Virus record (IMG/VR): IMGVR_UViG_3300029953_000103
Location: 1 to 33,786 of that record
DNA from: a virus
DNA length: 33,786 nt
Strand: one strand, 5' to 3'
Shown here: piece after piece, positions 29,500 through 33,619 of the stretch
Layout: each line of letters starts with the position of its first letter
Numbering within the stretch: the stretch's first letter is position 1
The notes under the pieces: generated by a model
Databases searched by the model: none
Seen by the model: the letters and a program-made list of their open reading frames with translations, nothing else
What the model was told of the DNA's origin: nothing
Position numbers and translations under genes: made by a program

Positions 29500-29675
29500 A
29501 GTGTTTCTAGTTTTTTCATGAATTCAGGATATTTATCTTTCGGCAGTTCCTCTAAAATATTGATCTTATACCGCCTTTTAAGTTCTTCATATTTGTCCAG
29601 GGTTTCGAGCTTTTTACCACCTTTCCAAAGTTTGAACATATAGAGGATTCGGATATCATCTAGTTGGATGTTCAT
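29496..29675 (-). CDS. 59-residue helical protein
   Basis: ATG 29675 to TGA 29496: MNIQLDDIRILYMFKLWKGG..., highly charged (KKLETLDKYEELKRRYK). Both ends overlap neighbours by ATGA, strong evidence of translation. Shorter than usual gene-call limits. No family recognised. Confidence 0.65.
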   Translation of the reverse strand: MNIQLDDIRILYMFKLWKGGKKLETLDKYEELKRRYKINILEELPKDKYPEFMKKLETL

Positions 29676-30670
29676 AGATGTATACCGTGTTTTTTAAATA
29701 GATCGTTAATTGCAAAAGCTGCCTGTTGCTCTACCACCATATTACCAAGCCCACGTAAAAGATCCTCTCTAAAGTTATACCCATCAACTGTGCAACCCAG
29801 GCCGGGTTTAATTGTTCTAGGTTCTTCCCAACTGTACTGATATTGCCTGGGTCGTGCAACACTACCATTTCGTTCAAAGGTCTGCTGTTTTTCCGATGCT
29901 GTTTGCTGCTTCCGCTTCGCCAGTTCGCTGCCGTTGCTGTCGGCCATTGATTCACCTGGGCCGCCAACTGAAGGTTGTTCCGTAGCCCCTTTGACAACTG
30001 ATATTCCGTTGTCCCACTTATCCGACTGTCCTGCACCATTGGAGTGTGCCAGTTCTGCGGCTCCAGCACACACCCTGGCAATTTGTTTTTCCGTTTCCCA
30101 TGACTGTTGCTGTACTCCGCCCTGCTGGCTACAGGCGTCGGCCAAGATGGCAAGGATAAAGAGCCGTTTTCTGATGTGCGCTTGCCCGATTTCTTCCGCT
30201 GAGTATAATCCAGCTTCAACGACATAGCCCAGGTCTTGAAGGTCTCGGACCACAATGTCGAGTCCAAGTGATACGTGCCCTGGTACATTCTCAAAGACAC
30301 ATCCGAAGGGTTTGATATCAGCCACTGTTTTTTTTGTATACGGCCAAATGTGCCGCGGGTCATCGGCCCCGAGTCTGTTTCCGGCATTGCTGAAGGGCTG
30401 ACACGGATATCCGCCAATGATCCAGTGTACTTTGTTATGAAATCTTCGTGCTGGGAATCTCTTAACATCCGTGAATATAGGTACCGAATCCACATGACCC
30501 GTTTCCATTTCCGCTGCCAAATTTGCGATGCAAATGGCTTCGATTTCCACATAAGAGACTGTTCGCACTGGTCCGATAACTCTTTCAAATCCTCTATCGA
30601 GCCCTCGCAGCCCCGTACAAATTGATAATACAGTGGGTGAGTCGAAGGGAGTAGCCACATTACTTTTCAA
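29672..30670 (-). CDS. DNA cytosine-5 methyltransferase
   Basis: A 332-residue enzyme that transfers a methyl group from S-adenosylmethionine to C5 of cytosine. Motif I LSICTGLRGLDRGFE (15-29), catalytic motif IV GGYPCQPFS with Cys90, motif VI FENVPG (126-131), motif VIII QAHIRKRLFILA (163-174), and a motif X-like GLGNMVVEQQ near the C-terminus. The region 176-290 carries LADA, LAHSNGAG and MADSNGSE segments. The same DNA encodes another protein-like frame (see nested entry). It is an orphan methyltransferase; no restriction enzyme is adjacent. It probably protects phage DNA or modifies it. Overlaps the next gene by ATGA. Confidence 0.88.
   Translation of the reverse strand: MKSNVATPFDSPTVLSICTGLRGLDRGFERVIGPVRTVSYVEIEAICIANLAAEMETGHVDSVPIFTDVKRFPARRFHNKVHWIIGGYPCQPFSNAGNRLGADDPRHIWPYTKKTVADIKPFGCVFENVPGHVSLGLDIVVRDLQDLGYVVEAGLYSAEEIGQAHIRKRLFILAILADACSQQGGVQQQSWETEKQIARVCAGAAELAHSNGAGQSDKWDNGISVVKGATEQPSVGGPGESMADSNGSELAKRKQQTASEKQQTFERNGSVARPRQYQYSWEEPRTIKPGLGCTVDGYNFREDLLRGLGNMVVEQQAAFAINDLFKKHGIHL
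29731..30225 (-). CDS. Nested gene in +1 frame of the methyltransferase: WPTP / LNPAWV...LMG protein
   Basis: The +1 frame is open for 310 codons across the methyltransferase gene. From about 30144 it shows a repeat signature seen in phage proteins: SWPTPVAS, NWHTPMVQD, QWPTATAANWRSGS, then NEMVVLHDPG and EQLNPAWVAQLMGI. In phage databases I recall 'WPTPTA..D...LNPxWVEWLMGFP' as a stand-alone protein. WPTP is read from the same bases that give LADA in the methyltransferase (TTGGCCGACGCC). ATG 30225 is a likely start (164 residues, MSLKLDYTQRKKSG...). A frameshift-made fusion of the methyltransferase N-terminus with this tail is another reading. Confidence 0.5.
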   Translation of the reverse strand: MSLKLDYTQRKKSGKRTSENGSLSLPSWPTPVASRAEYSNSHGKRKNKLPGCVLEPQNWHTPMVQDSRISGTTEYQLSKGLRNNLQLAAQVNQWPTATAANWRSGSSKQHRKNSRPLNEMVVLHDPGNISTVGKNLEQLNPAWVAQLMGITLERIFYVGLVIWW

Positions 30671-30864: not shown

Positions 30865-31665
30865 TTAACCCAATTCGCAATTTGGTGATATATAAAGAAT
30901 CTCTGTTCTTTTTCTAGCCCCGTCAGCCAAGGCATCACGCTTGATTTTTAACCAGCCGTGTAATATGCTAGTATATATTTCGTTGTCATACCCGGATACA
31001 ATAACCATCCCTTTTAGTGAAATTAATACGCGCAAAAGTTCTACATGATCACTGTCTTGCATTTCAAAATTATATGCATTTTTTACTTTTTTCGTTTTGT
31101 CCCGCGTAATGTGAACATACGGAGGATCTACATAATGCAGAGTCGATATACTATCATGCTGCACCAACAAACTTCCAGCATCTTTGTTTTCTATCGTAAC
31201 TCCCCTTAGCCTTTCTATTAACGCGGGTATGCCCATCGGATAATTTCGCCAATCATGAGTGGGTGTTGTTGAGCTTCTATTTGAACAAGATCGGAAACCG
31301 GTTTTATAGCCAGATCCAGCCGCAGATCCAAAACCAGAAAATGACCGATATATAGTTCGTCTAGCTTGTTCAACATCATCATCTGAGGTCGAATAGCTTT
31401 CAATAAATTCATCTCTAGCAAAAGGCGTAAGTTCAATTAAACGCATTAGTTCTTCGCCCCTGTCCCGCATGACTCTAAATAAATTGACAACTTGCCCATC
31501 TAAATCATTGTATATCTCACCGTACGAACGCTCTTTTCGTAATAATACCGAACCCGCTCCCCCGAAAGCTTCAGTATATACATTATGTATCGGGAAATGT
31601 GATATTATATATGGTGCGAGTCGCCATTTCCCGCCGTGGTACCGCATTATGGGCCTTTTTATCAT
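30865..31665 (-). CDS. DNA adenine N6-methyltransferase (D12 class)
   Basis: A 266-residue enzyme from ATG 31665 (MIKRPIMRYHGGKWRLAPYI). The earlier ATG 31725 would overlap the polymerase gene. YHGGKWRLAPYI (9-20) and FGGAGSVLL (34-42) form the AdoMet site, EIYNDLDG (50-57) binds the cofactor, and YVDPPY is the catalytic DPPY. The class methylates adenine in short sites, often GATC. One base separates it from the polymerase stop. It likely protects phage DNA from host restriction, like its cytosine partner downstream. Confidence 0.88.
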   Translation of the reverse strand: MIKRPIMRYHGGKWRLAPYIISHFPIHNVYTEAFGGAGSVLLRKERSYGEIYNDLDGQVVNLFRVMRDRGEELMRLIELTPFARDEFIESYSTSDDDVEQARRTIYRSFSGFGSAAGSGYKTGFRSCSNRSSTTPTHDWRNYPMGIPALIERLRGVTIENKDAGSLLVQHDSISTLHYVDPPYVHITRDKTKKVKNAYNFEMQDSDHVELLRVLISLKGMVIVSGYDNEIYTSILHGWLKIKRDALADGARKRTEILYISPNCELG

Positions 31666-31666
31666 G

Positions 31667-33619
31667 TTATTCTTTTTTATAGTACATCGTTTCAAATCCT
31701 TCAGCATCCAGGGGTAGTCCGGCATACTGGGGGCCTACCCCCCGCATCATAAGTTGACAAAGTTCATCAACAGAGCCGACACCATCCGGCATTTCGCAAA
31801 CCAGTTCATCGTGAACGTGAACAACGATAGAATAATCTGCGTCATCGGCTTGTAGCATTGCATTCCCCAGTAGATCCCGCTGGGTTGCCTGGACAATATT
31901 TTCTACCAGCTTCCCGCCATACGTGTCCTGCATACCCCAGACCTTCTTATCGCTGATCCCCTCATACTGTATGGCCGGTCCGTATTTGCCTTCTACCAAA
32001 CGCGGACGTAGATATGCCAGTTTTCGTCCGGACGGCAATTTAATCCACAATATGTTTTTTTCAACGAAAAATTCCAAACCGTGATGCAGTTTTTGCGGGT
32101 AGCCTTGTACCGCTAATATGGCAGCTTTCTCTACGTCCCGCCAAAATTGAACGATTTCCGGATTCGCATTGCGCCACATTTTTACGATCATTGGGAGTTC
32201 TTCTTCTTTCACGCCCATTTTAAGTGCCTTGCCCCGAATGAGCGCTTTTGGTCCGCCCCCATACCCCAGCAATAATTCGGACACTTTACCTTTAGCCCTG
32301 AGCGGCGATTTTTTGGTTATCAGGTGAATGGGCACCTTAGACATTTTGGACGCGGACGCCTCATATATCTTACCGTGCGTCATGAACACATCCAGGCGCC
32401 ATTGGCAGCCAGCAAACCAGGCAAGTATACGGGCCTCAAATTGCGAGAAATCCGCCACAATGAATCTGTGTCCTGGCCTAGGTACTAAGGCAGTTCTAAT
32501 GAGCTGCGACAGCACATAACTGATATCGCTGAAAAATACCCGCATGTAATCCGAATCGCGTAATAGAAGCAGTTCACGCGCCATGTCAAGCATTTCCATT
32601 TCATTTTTTGGCAGATTGTGAAGCTGCGGCCCCCTGCCGGCCCAGCGACCAGTACGCCCGGCGCCGGCGAACTGAAACATGCCATGCACCCTGCCATCGG
32701 CGCACAAGTAATCCAGCATGGTGTAGTACTTGTTCACTGACGTTTTGCCCATGCCTTGCCGTATCTTCAGCATTTCACGGACAACAGGACTATCGTATTT
32801 TTCCAGCATGGCTTCTACAGTTTCAACTGTGAGCGACAGCACCAGATCCCCGGTATTTTCGTGCAGCCAGTTTTTTATTTGGTCTGGGCTATTTGGGTTG
32901 GACATTCCGGTTAGCTGTGTAGCCCTGGTGGATAGTTCCTTGGTTACGATTTCATCTATGTAAATGGCCGCCCTGCACAGCTCGGCGTCGAGCATGACAC
33001 CCCGAGCATTAATCCGCTGATCCAACAGCCACAGCCTACGTTCAAAGGCAGAAGGCTGGCTGAAGTATAATTTTTTTCTTACGTTACGTTCTACTCGAAC
33101 ATCTTGTTTGCAGTACTCAATAAACCTTTTCCATTTTTCGGGTGCGTGCCAGGGCATGTTGCGGGTGCGCATGCCGTTGACTTTGGTGGGCTTACACGGC
33201 CTGCAAAAGTATTCAATCAGGGCTTTGCCTTCTTTATCCTTACCGGCATCCAGTTTCAAGGCAACTGCAGCTTTAGCTAAATCTAATGGAAGTCCTGTCG
33301 ATGCGCACGTAACCATTGTACAGTGCCATTGGTCCCGTTTAAGCGGTCCGTATTCCCAGAAGAACGTTTCTATGTTGTTTAGCTCGAACGGGGCGCCGTG
33401 GGCATGCTTTTTAACATGTGCGTCATACATGGCGTTGATGACACGGTCCGGTATCTGTTCACCACTGGCTATATCGACGCAGCTTACAGGATCGTCATCG
33501 AACGCATACGCGAAAAGTAAAATCGCATGGTCTGGGTCCTGCACATATTTGTAGGTTCCACATGCAGTAAGATCAGTTCCGCTGTACGTTTCGATATCGA
33601 TGGATAGGTCACGCACCAC
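31667..33619 (-). CDS. DNA polymerase, family A with 3'-5' exonuclease
   Basis: A 650-residue replicative polymerase of phage style. Exonuclease domain: SIDIETYSG (6-14), AHGAPFE (73-79), YCKQDVRVE (169-177). Polymerase motif A ADFSQFEARILAW (389-401), motif B with R441, K445 and YG at 453-454, motif C HVHDELV near the C-terminus. The exonuclease HGAPFE lacks the Asn usually seen after the His. Starts at GTG 33619, overlapping a tiny upstream gene by 11 bases. Works with the primase-helicase downstream. Confidence 0.92.
   Translation of the reverse strand: MVRDLSIDIETYSGTDLTACGTYKYVQDPDHAILLFAYAFDDDPVSCVDIASGEQIPDRVINAMYDAHVKKHAHGAPFELNNIETFFWEYGPLKRDQWHCTMVTCASTGLPLDLAKAAVALKLDAGKDKEGKALIEYFCRPCKPTKVNGMRTRNMPWHAPEKWKRFIEYCKQDVRVERNVRKKLYFSQPSAFERRLWLLDQRINARGVMLDAELCRAAIYIDEIVTKELSTRATQLTGMSNPNSPDQIKNWLHENTGDLVLSLTVETVEAMLEKYDSPVVREMLKIRQGMGKTSVNKYYTMLDYLCADGRVHGMFQFAGAGRTGRWAGRGPQLHNLPKNEMEMLDMARELLLLRDSDYMRVFFSDISYVLSQLIRTALVPRPGHRFIVADFSQFEARILAWFAGCQWRLDVFMTHGKIYEASASKMSKVPIHLITKKSPLRAKGKVSELLLGYGGGPKALIRGKALKMGVKEEELPMIVKMWRNANPEIVQFWRDVEKAAILAVQGYPQKLHHGLEFFVEKNILWIKLPSGRKLAYLRPRLVEGKYGPAIQYEGISDKKVWGMQDTYGGKLVENIVQATQRDLLGNAMLQADDADYSIVVHVHDELVCEMPDGVGSVDELCQLMMRGVGPQYAGLPLDAEGFETMYYKKE

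Follow-up and report, generated by a model that had tools for sequence, protein, structure and literature searches.

Does the cytosine-5 (C5) DNA methyltransferase gene of this virus encode one protein or two, and, if two, what does the second one contribute? The window, by which we mean the whole stretch of DNA analyzed, is a 33.8-kb IMG/VR virus record. Terminase, portal, tape-measure, helicase/primase and DNA polymerase genes are present in it, and the methyltransferase locus lies on its minus strand. An earlier note on this DNA had held that the methyltransferase frame (frame 0, here called alpha) shares its bases with a separate nested protein in the +1 frame (here called beta), with a programmed frameshift as the alternative. 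Judged from the sequence comparisons described below, the locus very probably encodes a two-subunit C5 DNA methyltransferase, with both subunits specified by a single gene in overlapping frames. The features are collected in Table 1. A gene for a D12-class adenine methyltransferase (PF02086, 2e-18; window 30865-31725, minus strand) is located just upstream with one small ORF between, and thus two DNA methyltransferase genes are closely placed in this phage.

Table 1. Features of the alpha/beta locus (positions in the window)
Feature	Position	Strand	Basis or remark
Alpha, C5 DNA methyltransferase, motifs I-VIII and X	29672..30670	-	332 aa from TTG; PF00145 6.5e-28, phrog_363 5e-44
Alpha start	TTG 30670, or GTG 30658 (likelier by comparison)	-	GTG here in 58/71 relatives
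Beta, +1-frame ORF wholly inside alpha, ATG start, 309 aa	29731..30660	-	phrog_1008 'DNA methyltransferase' 3e-20, residues 72-294
Beta second half: TRD-like units and motif IX			
TAATGTG: TAA of upstream 92-aa ORF, beta ATG and alpha GTG overlapping in 7 nt	30656..30662	-	sequence
Alpha motif I region (LSICTGLRGLDRGF)	30587..30628	-	M.HaeIII alignment; alignment A8
Alpha catalytic motif IV, PCQPFS	30389..30406	-	sequence; invariant in alignment A8
Alpha motif VIII (GQAHIRKR)	30164..30187	-	
Beta TRD-like region, three WxT[PA] units starting at 30144, 30051 and 29946	29814..30144	-	
Beta motif IX, LNPAWVAQLMG	29779..29811	-	variant without FPxxW, common to L190 and L015
Alpha motif X helix (LLRGLGNMVVEQQAAFAINDLF)	29690..29761	-	AF2 pLDDT >90, residues 309-327; phrog_1008 positions 288-319

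The +1 frame had been described as open for about 310 codons, and a 309-codon ORF was found. The span named for the overlap (29731-30225) takes in its C-terminal half, but the open frame reaches on to 30660. The motifs quoted from the two readings are all present, namely WPTPVAS (from 30144), NWHTPMVQD, QWPTATAANW and LNPAWVAQLMG in the +1 frame, and LADACS, LAHSNGAG, MADSNGSE and PGLGCTVDG in the main frame. When the synonymous codons of the window alpha were permuted, keeping the protein and the codon usage, the +1 frame contained 8.8 stops on average and was open in none of 20,000 shuffles, compared with no stop in 308 codons of the actual gene. The +2 frame of alpha contains 19 stops, and the longest open +1 run in the other main genes of the window is at most 123 codons.

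A single-protein scan with alpha as the query gave no matches. IMG/VR was scanned using patterns of the methyltransferase frame only (PCQPF and DxRHLWP), and 80 relatives with G+C of 0.46-0.70 were obtained. The +1 frame was open across the gene in nearly all of them, and the end LNPxWVExLMG was found in most. In the first half of the gene, 6 stops were observed in the +1 frame of 88 loci against 198 ± 10 expected from synonymous shuffling, and in the second half 8 were observed in 80 loci against 184 ± 8, so that the stops of these alpha-selected loci, taken over both halves, were about 30-fold below expectation. The +2 frame, used as the negative control, was at expectation (565 versus 575 and 734 versus 749). 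The sample of 88 loci was picked by likeness to the alpha frame of the window and represents a clade, not all C5 enzymes.

Codon-position rates and a dN/dS-like omega were determined from 22 pairs of related loci; the window has no close relatives, so the values are not its own. In the first half, position 3 of the alpha codons was the most variable, which is the pattern of an ordinary gene, and omega was 0.20 for alpha and 0.62 for beta. In the second half, the most variable position was position 1 of alpha, which is position 3 of beta, and omega was 0.19 (CI 0.16-0.24) for beta and 0.34 for alpha. Past the beta stop, alpha position 3 was free again and constraint on the +1 frame was undetectable (omega 0.96, CI 0.47-1.96). 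This flip of the codon positions, together with the omega values, indicates that beta is dominant in the second half. The proposal that the DNA is dual-coding is thus supported both by the depletion of stops and by the low second-half omega of beta. As had been supposed, many phages conserve the pairing of LADA with WPTP, and likewise that of VDG with LMG, which follows from one set of bases being read in two frames. In alpha, the repeated LADxNG segments are probably the other-frame reading of WPTP; they look like a by-product, since alpha is predicted to be disordered there and its position 1 is the most variable.

In C5 methyltransferases, the majority of the conserved motifs belong to the large domain, and the variable region and motif IX to the small domain (PMC3404938). 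Alpha is identified as a C5 DNA methyltransferase (PF00145) by motifs I, IV (PCQ), VI (ENV) and VIII and by its significant profile match, and its motifs are conserved in alignment A8. The AF2 model of alpha was confident at residues 10-176, containing motifs I-VIII, and at residues 309-327, containing motif X, and residues 213-308 were almost all disordered. In the Foldseek comparison, the model matched HaeIII and HhaI with a TM of ~0.43 over ~172 residues only. Alpha therefore lacks a small domain. Frame 0 of the window gene showed no motif IX, and alpha alone is not a complete enzyme, in the sense of a TRD and motif IX in the same chain.

The view of the nested product as a separate, unrelated protein was not upheld, as beta carries the putative target-recognition region and the motif IX that are missing from the main-frame enzyme. 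The TRD region of beta starts ~20 nt downstream of alpha motif VIII, and the same junction was found in 51 loci. In the alpha frame, the bases of this region read as LADxxG segments, mostly predicted to be disordered. We infer that the W/LPTP repeats are TRD modules because they occupy the place of the TRD and vary in number, as the modules of multispecific phage enzymes do; the region was poorly predicted even in the model of a natural monomer (see below). The window beta ends with LNPAWVAQLMG and a short tail, where motif IX belongs. This motif IX is divergent (LMGITLERIF) and was seen in a small clade only. Within the clade, LMG[IT]TLxxIF (window 29731-29811, minus strand; L190, which is a Bacteroidales MAG; and L015) replaces LMGxPxGW and is conserved in relatives.

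The two frames were searched separately and each gave significant family matches (Table 1). Family phrog_1008 was tiled by the two window products, with beta at positions 32-273 followed by the C-terminus of alpha at 288-319. The beta of phage Samy matched the DNA methyltransferase family phrog_116 at 409-499 (1e-13), downstream of the part covered by alpha (202-376). When a profile of motifs IX-X (A4), built from eight loci having IX and X in one frame, was compared with PDB, six of the seven matches were C5 methyltransferases at IX-X (plant DRM-type), each of them weak (E 0.06-0.7). A profile of full-length beta (A3) gave no matches in PDB, and IX-X fragments gave weak or stray matches only in Pfam and NCBIfam (PF00145 at 0.05 for one member).

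The relatives present the same parts in three layouts. In Gordonia phage Jabberwocky gp4 and most of the IMG/VR loci L098-L108, motifs IV and VIII, two to six LPTP units and motifs IX and X are in one frame, and the model of such a natural monomer aligned along the length of M.HhaI with a TM to the target of ~0.6, compared with ~0.43 for alpha (rmsd ~10). In Samy, Vash, Clarenza and the loci L027, L038 and L070 the enzyme is split, with motifs I-VIII in one chain and TRD, IX and X in the next. The nested layout of the window is found in most of the IMG/VR sample, in BcepC6B, ESSI2, Klebsiella, Paenibacillus HB10c2 and Lacticaseibacillus R9.1, and also in bacterial genomes of several phyla. Counts of these architectures by regular expression are approximate owing to a loose motif X pattern; the 'split' class is probably inflated in the second subfamily (see below), and the class 'X not seen' takes in motif X variants. 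Two nested loci, L008 and L007, differ by one extra in-frame WPTP unit of ~44 residues in the former. Past motif VIII, the Jabberwocky monomer (L096) keeps a +1-frame LPTPRATDGTKGGPNQRGSSGDRMLPSAV unit that resembles an in-frame unit of another monomer (L102) and is a possible trace of evolutionary frame switching. In L028 (2478-4361), the beta ORF of 628 codons extends 685 nt past the alpha stop and is possibly fused to the gene that follows. Of the two frames, only alpha is annotated in those nested phage records that were checked (L001-L004, L006 and L093-L095). In PHROG, the beta-type family phrog_1008 bears the label DNA methyltransferase.

The starts of alpha and beta in the window are within 2 nt of each other (TAATGTG). 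In the clade of the window, the beta start overlaps an alpha-frame GTG (ATGTG) in 58 of the 71 loci, 34 of which are without another upstream alpha start. An SD-like motif precedes the shared start in 40 of the 71, compared with 11% of random sites; at the window's own start none was found. Among 60 loci, 9, including the window, have the stop of the upstream gene at an offset of -2, and 30 have it within -12..+7. A second, independent subfamily (73 loci of the BcepC6B type) has the beta start within alpha, at an internal ATG. The frame-0 sequence DERSIED there carries GGAG (58 of 72), and the ATG is formed by the Asp codon GAT, which is used in 72 of 73 loci at this site, compared with 40% elsewhere. 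The +1 stops numbered 101 against 101.6 expected before the internal ATG, and 5 against 78 and 1 against 115 after it. This depletion, limited to the region past the internal ATG, points to initiation at that codon.

Both start arrangements, the pair 2 nt apart and the internal ATG, speak against a programmed +1 frameshift after motif VIII, by which alpha I-VIII and the TRD-IX part would be joined in a single fusion and the two-frame layout would be a recoding site. Such a shift would yield a contiguous enzyme, as motif VIII is immediately followed by the +1 TRD in the loci studied, and natural fusions do exist among some of the relatives. However, the second frame would then be expected to open only past the shift site, and the openness of the first half, where stops are so strongly depleted (6 versus 198), would be unneeded. 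The +1 frame is instead open from its own start through the first half; that start, ATGTG, is conserved, and in the second subfamily the openness begins at an internal SD-ATG. The fusion would also lack motif X, which sits in frame 0 around and beyond the beta stop. We therefore regard the frameshift, which the earlier note had offered as its alternative, as improbable.

Slightly less credible still is that beta is a separate accessory protein, such as a regulator, an anti-restriction protein or a DNA-binding factor, overprinted on a complete methyltransferase. Although beta does have an N-terminal half of its own, which is weakly constrained (omega 0.62), the alpha it would be overprinted on has neither TRD nor motif IX, beta itself contains a motif IX-like sequence, the beta of relatives also contains motif X, and in the monomers these units are part of the methyltransferase frame. 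Sequence arithmetic could also suggest that codon or amino-acid bias in the methyltransferase frame gives rise to the +1 frame as an artefact, since LADA written CTGGCCGACGCC forces WPTP in the +1 frame. Yet synonymous shuffles with the same protein and codon usage yield many stops, the segment before the ATG in the second subfamily behaves as expected, and the second-half codon-position rates follow beta. There is virtually no chance that this explanation is right, and the shuffle and codon-position tests rule it out.

The two-subunit reading has precedent in known enzymes. In M.EcoHK31I, a two-polypeptide C5 methyltransferase (YGGCCR), the gene for the small subunit lies within that for the large subunit, in another frame. 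Its larger subunit has motifs I-VIII and X, its smaller subunit has motif IX, and both are required (PMC3404938). The window locus is similar in that motifs I-VIII and X are in one polypeptide and motif IX in another, and that the two are coded by different frames of the same gene. It differs in that the TRD, assigned by prediction to the larger subunit of M.EcoHK31I, corresponds to TRD-like units in beta, alpha being predicted to be disordered there. In addition, the window beta covers almost all of the alpha gene, its start lying 2 nt from that of alpha, and the system is phage-borne with a variable number of TRD-like units. The best reading is that the window locus would work like M.EcoHK31I, to which it is likened by motif layout, without being placed in the same family. 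M.AquI has motifs I-VIII in one chain, and its other chain contains motifs IX and X together with a portion of the variable region (PMC3404938). The split relatives listed above resemble M.AquI; the window locus differs from it by keeping motif X in alpha and by a beta that is completely nested instead of placed in tandem. Multispecific phage C5 methyltransferases of the SPbeta and phi3T type are single-frame monomers with several short tandem TRD modules between motifs VIII and IX. The window locus shares the several short tandem modules, but has them in the +1 frame of a second chain. The actinophage monomers (Jabberwocky gp4; L096, L098) have the same I-VIII, LPTP repeat, IX and X units in one frame without overlap. 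A literature search covering few subscription journals found no description of such an arrangement in phages. The two-polypeptide type thus has precedent, and the breadth, the fully nested layout, the shared start and the apparent TRD arrays are new variants.

In the two-subunit enzyme that we propose, the large domain for SAM binding and catalysis (motifs I-VIII) would come from alpha, as would motif X. Beta, begun 2 nt upstream at the overlapping ATGTG, would be translated to supply the W/LPTP target-recognition units and motif IX. The two would assemble into a complete enzyme, which may methylate the phage DNA, probably for evading host restriction. It also seems somewhat likelier than its converse that the locus belongs to a large class of C5 enzymes of phages and prophages, most of them unannotated, with alpha and beta interleaved over nearly the full gene from a shared start. 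In this class, beta could acquire or lose TRD units of 3n size and thereby alter the specificity, while alpha would only need to stay open, and the frames of the C-terminal motifs would have switched repeatedly among monomer, split and nested forms.

To our knowledge, there are few demonstrations in bacteria and phages of long gene pairs that overlap on the same strand with selection acting on both frames. Such a pair recurs here in well over a hundred loci examined and in several bacterial phyla, and the overlap would have a clear biochemical reason, namely that its products are two halves of one enzyme. Annotation usually records one half and misses beta. If the proposed arrangement is true, the methylation specificity of these phages would be readable from the beta frame, not from the disordered segment of alpha, and the locus would offer a natural system for overlapping start codons, subunit co-synthesis and evolutionary frame switching.
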